The notes beneath the pieces were generated by a model. That model was not told the DNA's origin and did not search any database. It worked only from the letters and a program-made list of their open reading frames with translations. This document shows positions 5,203-64,000 of a stretch of 64,000 nt of DNA, in pieces. Origin of the DNA: Arthrobacter sp. Soc17.1.1.1 (GTDB lineage: Bacteria; Actinomycetota; Actinomycetes; Actinomycetales; Micrococcaceae); contig NZ_JBAJII010000001.1 of the NCBI RefSeq assembly GCF_036867195.1, positions 1,922,001 to 1,986,000 on the forward strand. Direction: 5' to 3'. The first letter of the stretch is position 1. Each line of letters begins with the position of its first letter. The translations under genes were made by a program, and so were the position numbers.

Positions 5203-6191
5203 ATGGCATACGATCTGGAAAAAATGCTTGTAGTGGGAGTAGCTTCAAGTGCACTCTTCAATCTGTCGGATGCTGACTCTGTCTTCCGCGAGCACGGGGA
5301 AGCGGTCTATCGCGAGTATCAGGAGACCCACATTGACGAGGCGCTGGAGCCAGGGGTGGCTTTCCCATTCATCAAGCGCCTTCTGTCACTGAATGACCTT
5401 GCGCAGGGCGAAACGCCGCTGGTGGAGGTGATCGTGCTCTCAAGTAATGACCCGGAGACTGGCCTTCGCGTTATGCGATCCATAGCGCACCATGACCTAC
5501 CCATATCGCGCGCAATCTTCATGCAAGGACGATCACCTTTTGCTTTCATGGGTGCTCTCAACATGTCCTTGTTTTTGTCTCAGAACAAGAACGACGTTCG
5601 CATTGCCATATCGAAGGGTTTCGCCGCCGGTCAGGTGCTGGGCTTGCCCGCAGCTGATCTTGACGGCACCGACCTTCGCATCGCATTCGACTTTGACGGA
5701 GTCCTCGCTGATGATTCCTCGGAACGGGTCATGCAAACCGAGGTCTACCAGCGTTTCACGCAAATGAGACAGAACGCCTTACGGAACCTCTCCCAGAGGG
5801 CCGACTATCCGAGTTCCTCCGCGGCATCAACCGCATTCAAGACATTGAGGAGAAACTCGTGGAAGACCAGCCCGACTATAACCGCCGAGTACACGTCGCC
5901 ATCGTCACAGCCCGCAACGCTCCGTCTCACGAGCGAGTGGTCAGAACGCTTCAATCGTGGGGTGTTCGCGTCAATGACGCGTTCTTCCTTGGTGGAGTCG
6001 AGAAGGCAAAAGTGTTGCGCGTTCTCAAACCACATGTGTTTTTCGACGACCAGCTGCGCCACCTTGAGGGTGCTGCCGATGAGATCCCGAGCGTTCATGT
6101 TCCGTTCGGAGTTGTGAATGAAGCATCGGATACCGAGCTCGAGGATGAACAGGATGCTGACAGGTTGGTTGCGTCAGGCGTTGGCAGTTGA
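5203..6191 (+). pseudogene. 5'-nucleotidase (NT5C1-type), interrupted by a frameshift
   Basis: Encodes a HAD-fold 5'-nucleotidase of the cytosolic NT5C1 family, which dephosphorylates nucleoside monophosphates. The first frame gives MAYDLEKMLVVGVASSALF and the nucleophile motif IAFDFDGVLADDSSE. The second part, one frame back, gives HVAIVTARNAPSHERV, GVRVNDAFFLGG and HVFFDDQ, all family motifs. The frames join in a three-A run at 5762-5764, where one extra A would restore a continuous protein of about 329 residues. The start is taken at the ATG with AGGAG just upstream. Either a true mutation or an assembly error in a short A-run; the protein is otherwise complete. Lower GC than the core genes suggests acquired DNA. 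Confidence 0.8.
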
Positions 6192-6433
6192 CGCCATACG
6201 ACATAACGAAGATCTAGCGGTGGAGGATCAGCTAACGGGACGGCTTGCAGGGCGAGGCCGGCACAACCCTTGGGCTGAGCTCAGTACCAGCCTCATTGCT
6301 TCTGGAAGATCCTCCTGTGGATGGTTGGAGGAGTGTCCACACCCGGGGTGGGATTAGTGCAATGTATCCGGGATCCGCGGGTGAAGGTGTGTCTATCATC
6401 GCACCGAGGCGGCGACCGCTTTTGGGGGGCTAC

Positions 6434-7051
6434 ATGAGTGACGTGAGTTCCGCGGCAAATTCTCGTTGGTCCAAAGCTGCGTCAAGGGCAGAGGGCTTGG
6501 CAGATCTGGGCAGTGGGGCCGCCGTGCGACGCTACTTCTTCGTCGTCTTCCCGTGGATGGTTGTAGTCGCACTGTTAGTTGGTTTCGCCGTAGCGGCCAT
6601 CTGGCCAGATCCGGAACAGAATATGCTGCGGTCGGGGATCTACTTTGGTTTGATTCTGACCGGAATCGGCACTCTGGTTGTCGGCCTTGTTTATGGCAAC
6701 AAAATGGTAGGCCCCTTAGTTCAGCCCCGGCGAATGGGGGTCACGGTAGGCCTTACGGCTGATGAGACGAAGTATGTGCGCCGCCAGGTCCTGACTGGCA
6801 AGTCGACCGATCTTGAGAAGCTGCCGGTTCTCCGAGGGGCAGCTGTTCAAATACGTGAGGGTCTAGCCAGGCATTTGCTCACGGCGCCCGCCTTGCCGGC
6901 ACTTCTCGGCGGGCAAGCAGTGTCCCACGGGATAACGTCCGCCCTCGATGTGGTGATGATGCTGCTCCTACTGGCCTTGACAGTCCTCTGGGTTTTTATC
7001 GCCCACCAGTTCCGGCGAACGGGTTCGTTCCTCAACTCAACTCGGTCCTGA
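6434..7051 (+). CDS. Membrane protein of unknown function
   Basis: A 205-residue protein. After about 30 hydrophilic residues come two adjacent transmembrane segments (FFVVFPWMVVVALLVGFAV and FGLILTGIGTLVVGLVYG), a soluble loop of about 75 residues with a charged stretch (TADETKYVRRQVLTGKSTDL), then one more transmembrane helix (VVMMLLLLALTVLWVFIA) and a short basic tail. The ATG follows a run of six G that can serve as a ribosome binding site. Not recognised as a known family. It lies between a broken nucleotidase and a convergent small membrane protein in the lower-GC accessory stretch. Confidence 0.7.
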   Translation: MSDVSSAANSRWSKAASRAEGLADLGSGAAVRRYFFVVFPWMVVVALLVGFAVAAIWPDPEQNMLRSGIYFGLILTGIGTLVVGLVYGNKMVGPLVQPRRMGVTVGLTADETKYVRRQVLTGKSTDLEKLPVLRGAAVQIREGLARHLLTAPALPALLGGQAVSHGITSALDVVMMLLLLALTVLWVFIAHQFRRTGSFLNSTRS

Positions 7052-7198
7052 TCGCCATATCGGACCAAATCCTTGTTCAGGATGGCCTGAGGCCAACGAC
7101 CTGCTGTCGTAGGGCCCTCCACACTTGCTCCATGGGGATTCTGCCGCTGCCGTGTTCGGCGCTCCTTGCAGGCGCCCGACCCGCGATCCCTTACTGGG

Positions 7199-7363
7199 CT
7201 ATTTGGGTTGGTGATCGTTCCGGGTCGGCGCATCCACGAGTTGCTCCAGCAAGGCGGCACTTCTCTCACCCGCATCGCGGATCCGATGCAGTGCACCGAT
7301 GATGCTGATGCTAGAGAACAGGATGACGAGTATGAGTACGGCCAGAAACCAGCGAAGAACCAT
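7199..7363 (-). CDS. Small single-pass membrane protein, 54 aa
   Basis: A 54-residue frame: MVLRWFLAVLILVILFSSIS forms a clear transmembrane helix, followed by a soluble tail of about 30 residues with a helical stretch (RIRDAGERSAALLEQL) and a polar end. AGGACAG nine bases before the ATG can be the ribosome binding site and lies at the edge of the tandem 16-bp repeat. Convergent with the 205-residue membrane protein. No known family; its small size makes the call tentative. Confidence 0.5.
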   Translation of the reverse strand: MVLRWFLAVLILVILFSSISIIGALHRIRDAGERSAALLEQLVDAPTRNDHQPK

Positions 7364-7368
7364 ACCGC

Positions 7369-7400
7369 TACTGTCCTATACGAGTACTGTCCTATACGAA
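7369..7400 (-). repeat. Two tandem 16-bp repeats upstream of the small membrane gene
   Basis: Two head-to-tail copies, TACTGTCCTATACGAG at 7369-7384 and TACTGTCCTATACGAA at 7385-7400, identical in 15 of 16 bases. They lie directly upstream of the leftward 54-residue gene, and the nearer copy contains its likely ribosome binding site (AGGACAG on the minus strand). Each contains TATAGG on the minus strand, so a duplicated promoter or operator is possible. Confidence 0.6.
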
Positions 7401-7458
7401 CCGCTGCGATCTTGGAAGTGGCTTTCCGAGCGTCGCGATTCGTGCGTTAACCGATCCT

Positions 7459-7773
7459 TCAGTGAGCATTCCGTCGGCGCGACGAGGCTGACACCTGGTC
7501 GGGGAAGTCCTCACCGATCCCATCAGGTTCGTAAAAGCCCTTCACGAAACCCCGCACCTCCGCCACGAGCTCGTCACGCGTCATGGAGGGCACGGAGATC
7601 GAGGGCTCGTCGGCCGAACTAGCGATGAATCGACTCGCGTTGAAACCGTAGGTTCCGTCAGCTGGTCCGTTCAACCAGGAGAAGTCGTAACTGAGCGCAC
7701 CGCTTGGCTGACGCCTCTCGCTGATACGAAATAGCTCATCATCGACGATGACCTCGAAGGGTGAACCGCCCTG
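7459..7773 (-). pseudogene. 3' fragment of an unknown gene cut by the IS element
   Basis: A leftward open frame that emerges from the left end of the IS element with no start of its own near that edge. Reading out of the IS it gives GGSPFEVIVDDELFRISE, then DFSWLNGPADGTYGFNASRF and DELVAEVRGFVKGFY, and stops normally. The 5' part is not found on the far side of the IS, so the gene is truncated rather than simply interrupted. Short acidic protein resembling small uncharacterised proteins of Arthrobacter; function unknown. An internal ATG at 7674 could start a 71-residue product. Confidence 0.55.
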
Positions 7774-7815
7774 GGTTTGATGGAGACTCCTGACCTTGGA
7801 AACGAGAATAGAGTC

Positions 7816-8160
7816 ATGGCATCAAGTCAGGGAGCTGGGAAGCCGACCGCTCGTCGGTATTCGCCGGAGGAGAAAGCCGCAGCGGTCCGGATGGTGCGGA
7901 CCTTGCGGGCAGAGCTCGGGACTGAGTACGGGACAGTTCACCGGGTCGCATCGCAGCTCGGGTACGGGACGGAATCGGTACGAGCATGGGTCCGGCAGGC
8001 CGACGTCGATGAAGGACAGGTCCCTGGTGTGAGTACCGCCGAGGCCAGACAGATGCGCGAGCTCGAGCAAGAGAATCGGGAACCACGTCGGGCGAACGAG
8101 ATCCTCAAACGGGCCGCGAGTTTCTTCGGGGCGGAGCTCGACCGCCAACACCGGAAATAG
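7816..8160 (+). CDS. IS3-family transposase OrfA
   Basis: A 114-residue DNA-binding subunit. It has the helix-turn-helix segment (RRYSPEEKAAAVRMVRTL, then VASQLGYGTESVRAWVRQAD) and the C-terminal leucine-zipper-like helix (MRELEQENREPRRANEILKR). The position usually occupied by Leu in ENRELRRAN is Pro here, which could disturb the coiled coil. The ATG giving MASSQG is preferred over a frame-open ATG 39 bases upstream next to the terminal repeat. Its stop lies inside the region overlapping orfB; the fused transposase is expected to arise by a -1 frameshift. Confidence 0.85.
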   Translation: MASSQGAGKPTARRYSPEEKAAAVRMVRTLRAELGTEYGTVHRVASQLGYGTESVRAWVRQADVDEGQVPGVSTAEARQMRELEQENREPRRANEILKRAASFFGAELDRQHRK

Positions 8161-9080
8161 TCGCCTCAATCGACGCGAACAAGAATGATGTCGTCGACGG
8201 CCGACCGCTTGGAGTCGAGCCCATCTGCGCGCTGCTGCAGGTGGCCCCGAGCACGTACTACGCCGCTAAGAACCGCGCCCCGTCCGCTCGTGCGGTCAGC
8301 GACGCGGTCCTCACCCCGGAGCTGGTCACTCTGTGGGAGGACAACTACCGCGTCTACGGGGTCCGCAAACTCTGGAAAGCCGCCCGTCGCGCCGGAATGG
8401 ACATCGGCCGGGACCAGACGGGCAGGTTGATGCGAGCCGCCAGCATCGAAGGCGCCACCCGTTCGAAGCGGGTGAAGACCACGCGACCGGATCCGGCCGC
8501 AACAAGACACCCTGATTTGGTGAAACGACAGTTCACCGCACCGGCGCCGAACCGGCTCTGGGTGACCGACCTGACCTTCGTCCTGACATGGGCCGGCGTC
8601 GCGTACGTCTGCTTCATCATCGACGCGTACTCGCGGATGATCCTCGGTTGGCGGTGCGCTAGTCATATGCGCACCGAGATGGTCCTCGACGCGATCGAGA
8701 TGGCTCGCTGGTCACGAGGCACTCACCACGAGGATCTTCGGTGCCACAGCGACGCGGGCAGCCAATTTACGTCGATTCGCTACGGCGAACGCCTCGCCGA
8801 GATCGGCGCGACGCCCTCCATCGGGACCGTCGGCGATAGCTATGACAACGCCCTGGCTGACACGGTGAACGGCTACTACAAAACCGAACTCGTCCGTGGT
8901 CCAGTCCGCCCTGGTCCGTGGAAGACGGTCGAGGACCTCGAGCTAGCGACCCTCGGATGGGTCCACTGGCACAACACGCAGCGCCTTCATGGCTACCTCG
9001 GCGATGTCCCGCAGGCGGAGTTCGAGCAGGCGTTCTATGCTGGCCAAACCATCCATAATCACCTGGTGGGAATCACATAA
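8121..9080 (+). CDS. IS3-family transposase OrfB (integrase domain)
   Basis: RNase H-like integrase. The reading frame is open from within the 3' end of orfA and has no good independent start before a GTG at 8241, so it is probably made as an OrfAB frameshift product; the coordinates give the in-frame extent. Motifs seen: APSTYYAAKNR, the HTH-like YGVRKLWKAARRAG, first Asp in RLWVTDLTFV, second Asp in CHSDAGSQFTS. The segment GDSYDNALADTVNGYYKTEL normally carries the catalytic Glu as ALAE; here the codon is GAC (Asp). This may leave the enzyme weak or inactive. Confidence 0.85.
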   Translation, partial: FLRGGARPPTPEIVASIDANKNDVVDGRPLGVEPICALLQVAPSTYYAAKNRAPSARAVSDAVLTPELVTLWEDNYRVYGVRKLWKAARRAGMDIGRDQTGRLMRAASIEGATRSKRVKTTRPDPAATRHPDLVKRQFTAPAPNRLWVTDLTFVLTWAGVAYVCFIIDAYSRMILGWRCASHMRTEMVLDAIEMARWSRGTHHEDLRCHSDAGSQFTSIRYGERLAEIGATPSIGTVGDSYDNALADTVNGYYKTELVRGPVRPGPWKTVEDLELATLGWVHWHNTQRLHGYLGDVPQAEFEQAFYAGQTIHNHLVGIT

Positions 9081-10924: not shown

Positions 10925-11782
10925 ATGATCGATCGCATCGGCCTGGCCGACTTCCTTCGTCGGCGCCGCGAAGCCTTGACTCCTGCCGACCTCGGGTTGC
11001 CCGGGGGTATGCGCCGGCGGGCCCCGGGGCTTCGACGGGACGAGGTCGCATCGCAGGCCGGTATTTCCTACGACTACTACGCCCGCTTGGAGCAGCACCG
11101 CGGCGCAAACCCGTCGGAATCAGTGATCGCCGGCCTCGCCCGAGGATTGCGGCTCAATGACGACCAACGCGATCACCTATTCCGCCTCGCCGGCTTCTCA
11201 GCTCCTGTGTCGGGTCCATCGCGGCATATCAGCCCTGGCCTGCTGCAGATGCTTGACCACCTTTCGGACGTTCCGACCTTGATCTGTACCGACCTCGGCG
11301 ACGTCCTGCACCAAAACGCTCTCGCCACCGTGGTGCTGGGCGATTTCACCGGCGGGAAGGACGCTCTCCTTCGTCATCCGAATAACCTTATTCGGGCGTG
11401 GTTCATCGACCAGGACACCCGGAGTCGGTTCCCGGTCGAGGACTGGGCGGCGCACTCCGCCGCGCACGTTCGCGACTTGCGTGCGACGACCTCCCGCCGT
11501 GGGGGTGAGCCCGATGTGGTTGCATTCGTGAAAGAACTGGCCGTAGGCAGTGAGGAGTTTCGGCTTTTGTGGGAACAGCACGATGTCGGTGGCCGGCGCT
11601 TTGCTCACAAACGGATCGCGCATCCCGAGGTCGGACTGATCGACCTGAACTGTGAAGTGATGCTCACCCCTGACCACGGACTGCAGGTCGTGGCGTTCTT
11701 TCCCGTCGAAGCTACCAATGCTCGTGAAAAACTCGACCTGCTGCAGGTCATCGGATTGCAGACCCTCACCGCCAACCCCTGA
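10925..11782 (+). CDS. XRE/MmyB-type transcriptional regulator
   Basis: A 285-residue regulator. The N-terminal helix-turn-helix is typical of the MmyB-like family (LADFLRRRREAL, GMRRRAPGLRRDEVASQAGI, YYARLEQHRG), followed by NDDQRDHLFRLAG and a PAS-like ligand domain of about 170 residues (TDLGDVLHQNALATVVLG, then a Trp/His-rich region and the closing GLQVVAFFP). AGGAGAGGAG precedes a GTG and ATG in tandem; the ATG is taken. Divergent from the SDR gene with the palindromic operator between them, so it probably represses that gene in response to a small molecule, possibly a fatty acid. Confidence 0.88.
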   Translation: MIDRIGLADFLRRRREALTPADLGLPGGMRRRAPGLRRDEVASQAGISYDYYARLEQHRGANPSESVIAGLARGLRLNDDQRDHLFRLAGFSAPVSGPSRHISPGLLQMLDHLSDVPTLICTDLGDVLHQNALATVVLGDFTGGKDALLRHPNNLIRAWFIDQDTRSRFPVEDWAAHSAAHVRDLRATTSRRGGEPDVVAFVKELAVGSEEFRLLWEQHDVGGRRFAHKRIAHPEVGLIDLNCEVMLTPDHGLQVVAFFPVEATNAREKLDLLQVIGLQTLTANP

Positions 11783-56753: not shown

Positions 56754-58832
56754 GTGAAACCAGACCAGATCGAACTCCTGACCACCACCGGCACACCGAC
56801 ACTCCATCCGGACGGCTCCCGCCTGGTGGTCGCCGCGACCCGCCCCGACCTCCGCGCCGACAGCTACGTGGGCCAGCTGTGGGAGATCACGCTCGACGGC
56901 GAGCGACGCCGGCTCACGCGCGGCTTCCGTGACACCGCCCCCCGGTACTCGCACGACGGCGCGCTGCTCGTCTTCCTCCGGGCCGCGCCGGGCGGCAAGC
57001 CGCAGCTGTTCGCCGTGCGCGCCTCGGGCGGCGAGCCCGTGCAGCTCACCGACCAGCCCCTCGGCGTCGCGCACTTCGACATCTCCCCGGATGCGGGGAC
57101 CATCGTCTTCGCGGCACGCGTACCCGAGCACGGGCGCTACGGCACCGTCGACGGCGTGAACGGTGCACTGGAGGACCCCCGCCTGATCACCGGGTACAAG
57201 TACCGCATGAACGGCCTCGGCTACACGACGGACAAGCGCTCCCAGCTGTTCAGCGTCCCGGTGCCCAGCCTCGACGCCGAGCCGTACATCGCCGCCGTCG
57301 GCAGGATGAAGCAGGAGCACGCGGACGGCCCGGGCGCGCTCGAGGAGCAGGGCGCGGTGCCGCCCGCGACACAGCTGACGACGGCGGACGCCGACCACCT
57401 CGAGCCGGTGTTCTCCGCCGACGGGCAGCGCATCCTCTTCACGGCCGCGCTCGCGGAGGACGCCGACTCCACCCTCGTGTCCGACATCCACTCGATAGCA
57501 CTCGACGGCGGCGACCACCGGACGCTGACCAACCTCGGCGGGGACACGCGCCTCGGGTGCAGCGCACCACGCCCGAGCGCCGACGGCGCGTGGCTGTTCT
57601 TCCTGGCATCGGACCTCTCGCCCTCGGGCCTGGACTTCGTGGCCCGGAACACGGCGCTCCACGTCCTGCCGATCGGGGACCCGCAGGACGTGCGGCGGCT
57701 CACCGACCCGGAGACCGTGGACGTCGGCGACGTCCAGGAGATCGTCGCGGACGGGCCCGACTCCGTGCTCGTCGTCAACCGCACGCGCGGCATGGGCGAA
57801 CTCCTCCGCGTCTCGGCCGCGGGGGAGAGCGAGACCCTCGTCGCCGGCTCCACCGTGGTGACGGGAGCCGCGGCGGCCGGCGGCACCGTCGTCGTCTCCT
57901 ACACCGACCCGGCCACCTCCGGCGACGCCGCGGTCGTCGAGAGCGGCGCGCTGCGTCGTGTCTCGGACTTCTCGGCTGCCCTGCGCGACGCCACGCGTGT
58001 CGCGGAGCCGCAGGAGCGCACCTACCCTGCGCCCGACGGGACGCCCGTGCACGGGTGGGTCGTCCTGCCCGAGGGCGAGGGCCCGCACCCGGTGCTGCTC
58101 GTCATCCACGGAGGGCCCTTCGCGCAGTACGGGTGGGGCTACTTCGACGAGGCCCAGGTGTACGCTGCCGCGGGGTATGCGGTGCTGCTGTGCAACCCAC
58201 GCGGCGCCGCCGGCTACGGGCAGGCACACGGCCGCGTCATCAAGGAGGCGATGGGCACGGTGGACCTCGACGACGTCCTCGCCTTCCTCGACGGCGCGCT
58301 CGCCGGCCACGGCGTCATGGACCACGGGCGGCTCGGGGTCATGGGCGGCTCCTACGGCGGCTACCTGACGGCCTGGACGATCGCCCACGACCACCGCTTC
58401 GAAGCCGCGATCGTCGAGCGCGGGTACCTGGACCCGCCGTCGTTCGTGGGCTCCTCCGACATCGGCTGGTTCTTCTCGGAGCAGTACACCGGGACTGACC
58501 CGGCGCGGGTGTCGGAGCAGAACCCGTTCGCGAAGATCGGGCAGGTGCGGACGCCCGCGTTCGTCATCCACTCGGAGGAGGACCTGCGGTGCCCCATCGA
58601 GCAGGCCCAGCGGTACTACACGGCCCTGAAGAAGCAGGGGGTCGAGACGGAGCTGCTCGTGTTCCCGGGTGAGACCCACGAGCTGTCGAGGTCGGGGTCC
58701 CCGTGGCACCGCAGGCAGCGCTTCGAGCACATCCTGCGGTGGTGGGCACGCTACCTGCCCACGGCAGCGAATCCGGCGCCCTCCCCGGCGCCCTCCCCGG
58801 CGCCCTCCCCGGCGCCCTCTCCGGCGCAGTAG
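56754..58832 (+). CDS. S9-family prolyl oligopeptidase-like serine peptidase
   Basis: A 692-residue cytoplasmic peptidase: an N-terminal beta-propeller of WD-like repeats (about residues 10-420) gating a C-terminal alpha/beta hydrolase domain. Active site: Ser in LGVMGGSYGGYLTAW, Asp in IHSEEDLRCPIEQA and His in PGETHELSRSG. Members are dipeptidyl or acylaminoacyl peptidases. The GTG at 56754 is favoured because it lies at the expected transcription start and gives the family N-terminus KPDQIELLTTTGTP. The last 20 or so residues are Pro-Ala-Pro-Ser repeats. Confidence 0.9.
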   Translation: MKPDQIELLTTTGTPTLHPDGSRLVVAATRPDLRADSYVGQLWEITLDGERRRLTRGFRDTAPRYSHDGALLVFLRAAPGGKPQLFAVRASGGEPVQLTDQPLGVAHFDISPDAGTIVFAARVPEHGRYGTVDGVNGALEDPRLITGYKYRMNGLGYTTDKRSQLFSVPVPSLDAEPYIAAVGRMKQEHADGPGALEEQGAVPPATQLTTADADHLEPVFSADGQRILFTAALAEDADSTLVSDIHSIALDGGDHRTLTNLGGDTRLGCSAPRPSADGAWLFFLASDLSPSGLDFVARNTALHVLPIGDPQDVRRLTDPETVDVGDVQEIVADGPDSVLVVNRTRGMGELLRVSAAGESETLVAGSTVVTGAAAAGGTVVVSYTDPATSGDAAVVESGALRRVSDFSAALRDATRVAEPQERTYPAPDGTPVHGWVVLPEGEGPHPVLLVIHGGPFAQYGWGYFDEAQVYAAAGYAVLLCNPRGAAGYGQAHGRVIKEAMGTVDLDDVLAFLDGALAGHGVMDHGRLGVMGGSYGGYLTAWTIAHDHRFEAAIVERGYLDPPSFVGSSDIGWFFSEQYTGTDPARVSEQNPFAKIGQVRTPAFVIHSEEDLRCPIEQAQRYYTALKKQGVETELLVFPGETHELSRSGSPWHRRQRFEHILRWWARYLPTAANPAPSPAPSPAPSPAPSPAQ
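58773..58827 (+). repeat. 12-bp tandem repeat at the 3' end of the S9 gene
   Basis: More than four copies of CCGGCGCCCTCC encode a Pro-Ala-Pro-Ser tail. Copy number could vary by slippage, changing only tail length. Confidence 0.75.
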
Positions 58833-58857
58833 CGGATCGGGTCGGCGCGCGGCGGGG

Positions 58858-59514
58858 TCAGAAGCCGAGACCCCGTCGCGCGGCGTCGACGGTCGGCTGC
58901 GCCCACCGGTGGTGTTCGGCGTCGGCGGTGAGGGACCGCAGGAGGGCCCGGTCCAGGTACAGCTGCCCGTTCAGGTGGTCGGTCTCGTGCTGCACTATCC
59001 GGGCGGGCCAGCCCTCGAACCCGGCGGTGACCGTGATGCCGCCGGGCTGCGTGTAGGTCGCCGTGATACGGGCGTGCCGCTCGACGACGGCCTGGTAGCC
59101 GGGCACCGAGAGGCAGCCCTCGTAGAACGCCGCCAGGGCGCCGTCCGCGGCCTCGTAGCGGGGGTTGATGAGCACGGTGAAGGGCAGGGGCGTGCGGCCA
59201 CGTGCCTCGGCGACCGCCGGGTCCTGGACACCGCGGTCCTCGAGCACGGCGATCCGCAGCGGGATGCCGATCTGCGGCGCGGCGAGACCCACGCCCGGCG
59301 CCTCGTGCATCACGCGCCGCATGGTGGCGATCAGCCGCCCCAGCGTCCCGTCGTCGAGCTGGCCCTCGAAGTCCTGGGCCGGTCGCCGCAGCACCGGGTG
59401 CCCTGCACGGACGATCGCGGGCAGGTCCTGGGCCAGGACGGCCTCGACCCGCTCCACGAGGGCCCCGGGTGGGAGCATCGCAGGGACGTCGTCGGCTGGA
59501 GCAGCTGCAGTCAT
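58858..59514 (-). CDS. def: Peptide deformylase
   Basis: A 218-residue zinc/iron hydrolase removing the formyl group from nascent proteins. All three motifs are present: GVGLAAPQIG, EGCLSVPG and QHETDHLNG, with catalytic Glu and metal ligands Cys and His. The first 40 residues extend beyond the catalytic core (GALVERVEAVLAQDLPAIVR). The upstream GGAGGG abuts the ATG with unusually short spacing, so a start a few codons further in is possible. Convergent with the S9 peptidase gene. Confidence 0.94.
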   Translation of the reverse strand: MTAAAPADDVPAMLPPGALVERVEAVLAQDLPAIVRAGHPVLRRPAQDFEGQLDDGTLGRLIATMRRVMHEAPGVGLAAPQIGIPLRIAVLEDRGVQDPAVAEARGRTPLPFTVLINPRYEAADGALAAFYEGCLSVPGYQAVVERHARITATYTQPGGITVTAGFEGWPARIVQHETDHLNGQLYLDRALLRSLTADAEHHRWAQPTVDAARRGLGF

Positions 59515-59679
59515 CCCTCCAGCAAAGCACAATCGCGGACAGGAACGGGTGCGCGCCCCATTGCCGCCTGCCGGGCGACCACGGAGAATCAGACGTGCTG
59601 CCCGCGGCCGGACCCGTGGCGGCTTCCCGGACGCACACCGGCCACCCGCGAGGGCGGGAGGCCGGAGGATGGAGGCACC

Positions 59680-62067
<2,388 letters not shown>

Positions 62068-62257
62068 GGCCTCCGGGGCCGTTTCCCCGACGCGGCGTCC
62101 CGGTCAGCCGAGCCCGCTGCTTGGGCGTCGGTCGCGCCCGGGGGACCCGGGAGCGAGTATCGACCCGCGCCGGGCAAGTAGTCGCCACGGTTGTAGGAGT
62201 GGTGTCCCACCCGTCAAATGAGAATCACGCATCACCGCACATCGTGAGGGATACACC

Positions 62258-63640
62258 GTGATTACTCTGGAACTACCGAACACCACCGGCCCTGCAGTCG
62301 ACGCCCCGTACCTGAAGCCACGGACGGCCACGCTGCAGATCTCGGTGTTCGGCGCGCTGAGGATCCGCCGCGGTGACGTACAGCTGGGCGCAGGCGACCT
62401 GGGTGGACCGAAGCCTCGCCAGGTCCTGGAGATACTCCTCGTGAACTTCGGCTCGGCGGTGTCCAAGACCCGCATCATGGACCTGCTGTGGGGCGGCAAC
62501 CGTCCTGCCGGCGCACTGCCGACGCTCGAGACCTACGTGAGCGTCCTCCGGCGCCACCTGCAGCCGGGCACCGGGCGCACGGGCCCCCTGCGGACGGTGA
62601 CGGGAGGATACGCGCTCGACCGGTCCCTCGTCGACCTGGATCTGGACCGGTTCGCGACCCTCACCCGGCGGGCCGGCCACGCGCAGCCCCGTGCGGCGCT
62701 CGCCCTGCTGACGGAGGCACTCGACCTGGCGTCCGCTCCACTGCTCGGTGACGAACTGCTCCCCGCGTGGGCCGAGGAGGAACGAGCCGCGCATGCAGTG
62801 CGGGTCGGCCGGGTCCGCGTGCTGGCCGCGGAAGCGGCGCTGTCCGTCGGGGACGCAGGCCTGGCGATCGCGCTCGCAGGAGCTGCGGCACAGGATGACG
62901 CCCTCGACGAGAGGGCATGGACCGCGCTGGTGCTCGGGCTCGAACGGAACGGCGAGTACACCGAAGCACTGCGGACCTTCGACCGCTGCCGCAGGATCAT
63001 GGACCGCGAGCTCGGCTGCGCCCCCGGATCGGCGCTGCGGGAAGCGCAGGCACGGCTCCTGACCAGCACCGGCGAGGGGGAGAGACCCGGGCCCTCCGCC
63101 GTCCGGAGCTCCACCGCCCCCGCAGGTGCCGGGACCAGCGTGGCCTCCGGGACGACCGGGCGGGAGGCGGAGCGCCTGCGGATCCTGCTCGTCGACGACC
63201 ACACGATGTTCTCGGACCTGCTGGCCGGAGCGCTCGACCGCGAACCGGACCTGAGGAGCGTCGGAGCGGCGACGTCGGTGGCCTCGGCCGTGGCGATGTT
63301 CCAGGATCTCCGGCCCGACATCGTCATGATGGACCTCCATCTCCCCGACGGATCGGGGCTCGCCGCCGCCGAGCGCATCCTCATGATCGCCCCCGGTACC
63401 CGGATCGTGATGCTGACGGGGAATCCCTCCCCGCAGGCGCTGGACGAGGCAGCCCGCCTCGGTGTCTGCGGGTTCCTCCCGAAGGACGGCGCCCTGGGCG
63501 TGATGCTGGATACCCTGAGGCACGCGGAGACCGGGCGCCTGACCATGAGCCCCTCCCTCGAGGCGAGATGGGGTCACGGGGCCTCGTCGGTGCGGGACCC
63601 GCGGGACAGCGACCGGGCAGAATCCGATGCGCGGACCTGA
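62258..63640 (+). CDS. SARP-type regulator with a C-terminal receiver domain
   Basis: A 460-residue protein with three parts. First is an OmpR-type winged helix (about 25-115: LQISVFGALRIRRGD, KPRQVLEILLVNFGSAVSKT, DLLWGG, LETYVSVLRRHL). Second is a bacterial transcriptional activation domain of helical repeats (about 120-270, DLDLDRFATLTRRAGHAQPR, YTEALRTFDRCRRIMDREL). Third is a NarL-type receiver (309-430) with Asp313-Asp314 in ILLVDDH, phospho-acceptor Asp359 in VMMDLHLPDG, VMLTGNPS and Lys409 in FLPKDG. No LuxR helix-turn-helix follows. GTG start with GAGGGAT. The kinase gene overlaps by 14 bp. Confidence 0.85.
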   Translation: MITLELPNTTGPAVDAPYLKPRTATLQISVFGALRIRRGDVQLGAGDLGGPKPRQVLEILLVNFGSAVSKTRIMDLLWGGNRPAGALPTLETYVSVLRRHLQPGTGRTGPLRTVTGGYALDRSLVDLDLDRFATLTRRAGHAQPRAALALLTEALDLASAPLLGDELLPAWAEEERAAHAVRVGRVRVLAAEAALSVGDAGLAIALAGAAAQDDALDERAWTALVLGLERNGEYTEALRTFDRCRRIMDRELGCAPGSALREAQARLLTSTGEGERPGPSAVRSSTAPAGAGTSVASGTTGREAERLRILLVDDHTMFSDLLAGALDREPDLRSVGAATSVASAVAMFQDLRPDIVMMDLHLPDGSGLAAAERILMIAPGTRIVMLTGNPSPQALDEAARLGVCGFLPKDGALGVMLDTLRHAETGRLTMSPSLEARWGHGASSVRDPRDSDRAESDART

Positions 63641-64000
63641 CGCGGGGGAGCCCGCACAGGGCACCGCCATCACCCCTGGTCCCCTGGAACGGCGGGCGGT
63701 GAAGGCGGCGGTCGCACGGTTCCTCGCGGCGGGCTTCGCGGCACTCCTCCTGGTGGCCCTGCCCATCGTCCTCTGGGTCTGGGCCGAGGCGGAGCGCCAC
63801 GCACTGGCCACTGCGCGGGACGTCACCCAGCGCCTGGCCGACAATGTCGTCGGGCCGCATATCACCGACGAGGTCCTCGCCCGCGAGACGGCCGCCCTGG
63901 AACTCCTCCGACAGGGACTCGCGCCGTGGCTCGACGAAATGGGCGTGACAGGGATCGCGATCCGGGACCAGCACGGCCGCGCGGTCTACTGGGACGGCGA
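63627..64000 (+). CDS. Sensor histidine kinase, N-terminal part
   Basis: At least 124 residues before the window ends. A short polar N-terminus leads to a transmembrane helix (FLAAGFAALLLVALPIVLWV) and an extracytoplasmic sensor segment with ATARDVTQRLADNVVGPHIT and TGIAIRDQHGRAVYWDG, as in NarL-partner kinases with a CHASE-like or single-Cache sensor. The kinase core is outside the window. The start overlaps the regulator gene by 14 bp, so the two are translationally coupled and probably form a phosphorelay pair. Confidence 0.7.
   Translation, partial: MRGPDAGEPAQGTAITPGPLERRAVKAAVARFLAAGFAALLLVALPIVLWVWAEAERHALATARDVTQRLADNVVGPHITDEVLARETAALELLRQGLAPWLDEMGVTGIAIRDQHGRAVYWDG

Follow-up and report, generated by a model that had tools for sequence, protein, structure and literature searches.

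A SARP regulator ending in a receiver domain, its partner kinase and its relatives in Arthrobacter-type bacteria

As a rule, response regulators carry the receiver first. Towards the end of the window (the whole stretch of 64,000 nucleotides of Arthrobacter sp. Soc17.1.1.1 DNA analysed here), a single gene places a receiver behind a SARP module, and the gene that overlaps it is the beginning of a sensor kinase. How did this arrangement arise, and does the receiver still control the DNA-binding part? Our preferred answer, with a probability of roughly 0.75, is that two neighbouring genes in an ancestral operon fused once, that the GerE domain was then lost and that the product acts as response regulator in a two-component system.

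The fusion protein and its partner kinase

The features of the locus are collected in Table 1. The fusion gene starts with a GTG codon in a context common to several relatives. All three Pfam domains of its product score above the curated cut-off. The AF2 model (mean pLDDT 86.2, pTM 0.58) has two loose regions, residues 280-303 and 442-460. Structure matches relate the SARP part to AfsR (8k60, 8hvr) and EmbR (2fez, 2ff4) and the receiver to VraR and DesR. An OmpR-type winged helix followed by BTAD is the order that defines a SARP (PMC10972967), and the receiver includes the acidic pair, phospho-Asp, Thr/Ser and Lys of two-component receivers.

A previous, sequence-only reading had described an OmpR-like winged helix and BTAD joined to a C-terminal NarL-type receiver in which the phosphorylation residues (Asp313/314, Asp359 and Lys409) are all retained. 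The Pfam domains, the fold matches and the residue table, which adds T387, bear this out, and a domain search of the full protein places a receiver fold after residue 300. The LuxR helix-turn-helix was said to be missing, and this agrees with the search: neither GerE nor FHA is among the seven Pfam families reported for the protein with E values up to 1 (the HMMER filters discard most matches with E above about 0.1, which bears on both absences).

Table 1. Features of the fusion locus (window positions)
Feature	Position	Strand	Evidence or remark
SARP-receiver fusion gene, wHTH-BTAD-REC, 460 aa	62258..63640	+	ORF and Pfam
OmpR-type winged helix (Trans_reg_C), residues 51-117	62408..62608	+	Pfam 1.3e-7, 32 bits, cut-off 26.2
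BTAD, residues 127-268	62636..63061	+	Pfam 1.5e-16, 61.5 bits; fold match AfsR 8k60, EmbR 2ff4
Low-confidence linker, residues 280-303	63095..63166	+	AF2; position of the C-terminal tail of unfused SARPs
NarL-type receiver (Response_reg), residues 309-418 of 460	63182..63511	+	Pfam 4.6e-18
Acidic pair D313 D314	63194..63199	+	Receiver residue table
Predicted phosphoacceptor D359	63332..63334	+	Receiver residue table
T387	63416..63418	+	Receiver residue table
K409	63482..63484	+	Receiver residue table
Start of partner HisKA_3 sensor kinase, 482 aa	63627..64000	+	Continues to G000:C1:1987075 (L003 5628-7076)
CGAGTA promoter element 1	62154..62159	+	CRAGTA scan
CAAGTA promoter element 2, 21 bases past element 1	62175..62180	+	CRAGTA scan

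The longest frame of the kinase gene begins at 63627 (a predicted start) and overlaps the fusion gene by 14 bases. The overlapping gene had been proposed to encode a sensor kinase. Once the contig was extended beyond the window end to the kinase core, it proved to be a histidine kinase of 482 aa with HisKA_3 (4.9e-11) and HATPase_c (6.2e-7) domains. The H, N and G1 boxes are present in 52 of 52 aligned kinase cores, that of the window included, so that the fusion gene is adjoined by a histidine kinase with the boxes expected of a two-component system. The kinase of a relative gave a weak model (mean pLDDT 68.5). Foldseek with this model retrieves kinases, either whole or as cores, and DesK enters at rank 12, below other kinases; judged by eye from how its elements are ordered in the weak model, the sensor domain reads as PAS-like. 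The observation of a SARP-receiver fusion beside a sensor kinase is confirmed and, by its anatomy (the domains and the paired kinase), its description as a two-component system with a SARP output was right.

The gene just 5' of the fusion gene (58669-62067, + strand) resembles, by eye, a UvrA-type ABC ATPase. A homologue is also found 5' of the fused gene in locus L004.

Relatives and the origin of the fusion

Three protein searches with fused queries gave 391, 452 and 429 matches, and the best 120 of each amount to 167 different proteins. Among these matches listed, local profiles distinguish 132 SARP-REC from 35 SARP-REC-GerE proteins. The receiver follows the SARP part in all 167 proteins; with fused queries and the best 120 of each search, the figure is a measure of conservation, not of frequency. 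As the queries were fused proteins, independent fusions may also exist elsewhere. Named relatives include Arthrobacter, Pseudarthrobacter and Paenarthrobacter, and databases label relatives as SARP or two-component regulators. Genomes matching the fusion query (not all of them with a fused gene) number 21 of 38 in the same genus and 59 of 150 in genus g10 (both at 1e-60) and 17 of 149 in the family (at 1e-30); an unfused SARP query matches 12 of 396 genomes of the order at 1e-50. A search for plasmid carriage gave no match to the query at 1e-20.

Merging rows with identical SARP and receiver sequences reduces 98 locus rows to 84 unique loci: 36 three-domain fusions, 12 four-domain fusions, 16 split systems and 20 with a SARP only. 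The last category includes L020 and L021, which are cut by contig ends, are probably fused and were excluded from the SARP tree. The family survey often matched the halves of the query at two adjoining places. In relatives from this family and this order, the genes for SARP, NarL-type regulator and kinase adjoin one another and share a strand. Nine of the ten regulators scanned from relatives have both receiver and GerE above the cut-off, which is the NarL/FixJ arrangement, and the tenth (L056) is a stand-alone receiver. Locus L053 combines winged helix, BTAD, receiver and GerE in a single chain of 527 residues, and a kinase adjoins the fused gene in all 12 of the four-domain (SARP-REC-GerE) loci.

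Both the occurrence of the two halves as adjoining genes and the intermediates that retain the LuxR-type helix-turn-helix lay outside the view of the sequence-only reading. Two further arrangements were encountered. In genome G116, a second fused copy is adjoined by two frames (L056, 7326-8072 on the - strand and 11325-11729 on the + strand), a stand-alone receiver 69% identical to that of the window and a 134-aa ORF matching kinase residues 17-89 only. In L114 (genome G376), which comes from a different family within the order, SARP and receiver-GerE regulator occupy opposite overlapping frames (6059-8356 and 6422-8677; these run from stop to stop and may be over-long).

In a tree built from kinase core and receiver (52 rows), all 34 fused rows form one clade (support 100/98) with the split systems outside, and a single fusion is the simplest reading of this topology. 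Its root is unsure since the two outgroup rows do not fall on one side of a branch. In the SARP tree (94 rows), the distant outgroup attaches within the fused group, and monophyly of the fused proteins is neither rejected (AU p 0.453) nor shown. Loci with the split order were fetched from three families of the order (f1, f17 and f19), those with the fusion from a single family. The fewest changes among the fused rows are two for GerE, two for an intact receiver and seven for kinase adjacency, counts that carry no direction. As GerE occurs in the split regulators as well as in the four-domain forms, we infer that it was lost. The ancestral operon would then have comprised a SARP gene, a gene for a NarL-type regulator (REC-GerE) and a HisKA_3 kinase gene.

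The opposite course, in which the split operon is derived and an ancestral fused gene broke into separate SARP and regulator genes, would account for the position of the distant outgroup inside the fused group of the SARP tree. It is very unlikely in view of the single fused clade, with split rows spread outside it, in the tree of kinase and receiver; the distribution among fetched loci (three families against one) and the four-domain form, which holds both DNA-binding domains complete, also argue against it.

What the fusion replaced is suggested by the unfused SARPs. In the 34 that are not truncated, the C-terminus is formed by a tail, roughly 55-60 residues long, in which two helix-like blocks are conserved; the blocks are at their weakest in L114 and L154. 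A profile of block 1 finds 34 of the 36 unfused SARPs (both misses are truncated) and a profile of block 2 finds 33; the profiles were trained on those same 34 sequences, so that only the misses among fused proteins are informative. Neither block is found at E<1e-3 in the 48 fused loci or in the 167 proteins among the matches listed. Faint matches occur for block 1 (E 0.05-0.09) in five four-domain loci and 3 of the 167 listed proteins, and for block 2 (E 0.03-0.08) in 2 of these 167. The receiver stands at the position of the tail and may have taken over its role. On balance we favour an account in which the SARP tail gave way to a receiver taken from the adjoining gene, GerE was discarded and the switch later wore out in two lineages, mostly kinase-less.

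Signalling, receiver state and candidate targets

The scheme that we propose for the single-fusion regulator is drawn from the DesK-DesR, VraR and AfsR mechanisms. The membrane kinase would sense an extracytoplasmic signal, autophosphorylate on the histidine of its H box and hand the phosphate to D359 of the receiver. Phosphorylated receivers would then pair, as those of VraR and DesR do, and bring two SARP modules together on DNA. The winged helix would bind DNA and BTAD would recruit RNA polymerase as AfsR does. Since the GerE DNA-binding domain has been lost, the SARP module would be the only output. The families and the retained residues are the basis on which phosphotransfer to D359, receiver pairing and activation through BTAD are predicted; DNA binding, the sign of regulation and the targets of the protein are likewise predictions, made by analogy.

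The sign could be the reverse: phosphorylation may turn the SARP off, or the protein may be a repressor like GSU1771, for which PMC10599522 reports that exopolysaccharide genes rise in the deletion strain. The structure matches of the SARP half, however, include AfsR within complexes that activate transcription (8k60, 8hvr), and the domain order of GSU1771 differs. We regard this alternative as doubtful, though it deserves some weight.

The state of the receiver was compared with the presence of an adjoining kinase (same strand, -1000 to 4000 bases, within the fetched stretches); loci scored as lacking one may have a kinase elsewhere. Fused loci with such a kinase have 33 intact receivers and one altered; those without have four intact and ten altered (Fisher p 1.5e-6, kinship ignored). 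Each of the four intact cases (L011, L056, L129 and L131) comes from a genome with a second fused copy that has a kinase. When kinship is counted there are two independent decays (two pairs agree, none disagree and five show no difference) and the association is not significant. With two independent decays only, we treat the joint decay of kinase and receiver as a pattern and have rejected it as a statistical result. In one type of decay, D-D becomes G-H or G-P and the phospho-Asp is lost (L015, L016, L018, L054 and L146); in the other, D-D becomes N-R, N-G or N-S and the phospho-Asp is retained (L137, L139, L143, L148, L149 and L150). L143 combines an altered receiver with an adjoining kinase whose boxes are intact, so here the receiver seems to have decayed first.

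Such decay raises the question of whether the receiver is simply a passenger, with a SARP module that acts alone and phosphorylation that no longer matters. The two lineages that dropped active-site residues (11 of 36 three-domain loci are altered) did keep the protein, and SARPs without an adjoining receiver occur in 20 of the 84 loci (contig ends truncate two of these). We nevertheless find a passenger receiver quite improbable: the window type retains D-D-D-T-K together with a complete kinase, and the full residue set is present in 175 of 201 tabulated receivers (the 167 proteins among the matches listed plus 34 locus receivers, duplicates included).

Neighbouring genes provide candidate targets. 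A multicopper oxidase is encoded in 34 of the 84 loci, an animal-type haem peroxidase in 26 and either one in 45 (at least 40% identity); these are raw counts without a random-locus comparison, and many of the loci are related. The oxidase is bilirubin oxidase/CotA-like (6iqz, E 5.4e-100). It lies close behind the kinase on the same strand in split (L019, L063, L107 and L108) and four-domain loci (L123, L124 and L125), lies behind the SARP gene in the SARP-only loci L099-L102 and is convergent in L112 and L113; the peroxidase gene and the fused gene diverge in the six N-type altered loci. In near relatives the targets are probably the multicopper (laccase-like) oxidase, the animal-type haem peroxidase or both. 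For the window genome the oxidase was rejected as a target, there being no Cu-oxidase_2 match at E<=0.001. A search of this genome for the secreted fn3 protein, run without a positive control, gave no match, and its one animal-type peroxidase lies about 1 Mb from the fusion gene. None of these three genes occurs in the 18 kb around the window gene.

Other neighbours were also recorded. A protein with fn3 and CHB_HEX_C domains (L008 9160-11493, - strand), whose N-terminal 400 residues are unassigned, has homologues in 17 of the 84 loci and is found near 14 of 25 intact three-domain fusions. Of the intact three-domain loci, 12 of 25 have an OmpR-type kinase/regulator pair 5' of the fused gene, as do 9 of 12 four-domain loci (for example, L007, L008, L010, L012-L014 and L017; L053 and L115-L122). 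The pair is divergent from the fused gene where orientation was checked, so that the promoter region may be shared. A defence association was rejected, as the PADLOC matches are weak (8.6e-4 and 1.3e-3) and confined to the receiver part.

The two promoter elements of the window (Table 1) belong to a CRAGTA pattern. Its mean number in the 300 bases 5' of the SARP gene, 0.18 being expected, is 2.2 in intact three-domain loci (25 loci), 4.83 in four-domain loci (12) and 2.0 in SARP-only loci (20), with further means of 1.2 (5 loci) and 1.83 (6 loci). Split operons, with a mean of 0.31 (16 loci), are hardly enriched. Of same-strand spacings, 20 of 45 are 21-24 bases. There is no enrichment 5' of oxidase or fn3 genes, and that 5' of the peroxidase is confined to the six divergent loci (0.67 versus 0.21). 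The OmpR-type kinase gene that precedes four-domain fusions has a mean of 2.2, which probably reflects the same shared stretch as the fused-gene promoter.

SARPs bind direct repeats with a period of about 11 bases and recruit RNA polymerase. CRAGTA could represent the binding sites of the window SARP, implying autoregulation and a surface-polysaccharide regulon. The enrichment before SARP genes and the spacings are consistent with this, as are paired elements in the window genome before a glycosyltransferase operon, an SGNH acyltransferase gene and the gene of a signal-peptide-like protein (no Pfam match). However, genomes G079, G671 and G659 carry the elements before a LuxR-ATPase gene and have no BTAD match at E<=0.001, which argues against CRAGTA as SARP sites. 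At least two elements precede this gene in 5 of 20 cases from genomes without a matched SARP of this family, whereas fusion genomes (3 cases), SARP-only genomes (6) and split genomes (1) gave none. The low value for split operons also counts against such sites, as does a reversed-pattern control that exceeded the pair pattern (27 versus 11 in the window genome, 66 versus 39 in four relatives), although the reversed pattern differs in composition and neither number is proof. Binding by the window SARP is therefore unlikely; the fusion gene may bear a promoter element that some other regulator reads.

Two near-identical promoter-like stretches with paired CRAGTA lie 13 kb apart in a polysaccharide region of the window genome (L171, about 6525-6590, and L172, about 6254-6320; G000:C1:1087.5 kb and 1100.3 kb). 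Arrays before a large ATP-binding LuxR-type regulator are seen in L225, L227 and L228 (genomes G031, G079 and G658) at about -211/-237, -177/-181 and -146/-150. The LuxR-ATPase arrays possibly mark a regulon.

Comparison with known systems

The window type has its receiver captured behind the output, contrary to the usual layout. Relatives keep unfused, half-trimmed and worn-out versions, and the steps of an output change can therefore be compared side by side. If the single-fusion account is true, three genes, four-domain, three-domain and pseudo-receiver forms make up a living series for the swap of a two-component output, which would also show a switch-controlled regulator reverting to a stand-alone one. 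These natural proteins address which DNA-binding domain of the four-domain form takes the signal, the role of the SARP tail and the control that remains after kinase loss. Arthrobacter-type soil bacteria would possess a SARP paired with a kinase, and in some relatives its output is likely to be a laccase-like oxidase.

Members of COG3947 have the order REC-wHTH-BTAD. The window protein has the same three parts but in the order wHTH-BTAD-REC, its receiver being situated after the SARP part. COG3947 is named as the SAPR family of response regulators in PMC7046781. GSU1771 of Geobacter sulfurreducens, a characterised regulator (PMC10599522), also unites receiver and SARP in one chain, its receiver being N-terminal and that of the window protein C-terminal. 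A SARP behind a receiver is thus not new, and the earlier claim of an undescribed architecture was too strong; the part that stands concerns the order wHTH-BTAD-REC, which we did not find in the open-licence literature searched. Within the accessible parts of the sources, a receiver behind its effector is termed unusual (PMC4395418), BTAD accounts for 0.6% of response regulators in a gene-cluster study (PMC10663231), a survey of LuxR proteins in Actinobacteria presents other kinds of fusion with no mention of 'BTAD' (PMC3466318) and a review recognizes small, medium, large and SARP-LAL classes with no use of 'receiver' in its main text (PMC10972967). None of these four classes fits a protein that ends in a receiver. 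As far as the accessible parts of the open-licence literature extend, we found neither a SARP with its receiver at the C-terminus nor a fusion series described. A receiver and a SARP in one chain were already known; the order wHTH-BTAD-REC and the living fusion series appear, from this literature, to be new.

The remaining comparisons concern the two ends of the chain. EmbR ends in an FHA domain, whereas the window protein ends in a receiver. AfsR continues with NB-ARC and TPR parts where the window protein has its receiver. In contrast to the NarL, DesR and VraR regulators that act with HisKA_3 kinases, and to the NarL/FixJ arrangement of an N-terminal receiver followed by GerE, the receiver of the window protein comes last, with no GerE output reported behind it. 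The relatives L015, L016, L018, L054 and L146 are like the aspartate-less receivers (PMC4395418), unlike the window protein, which keeps its phospho-Asp, D359.
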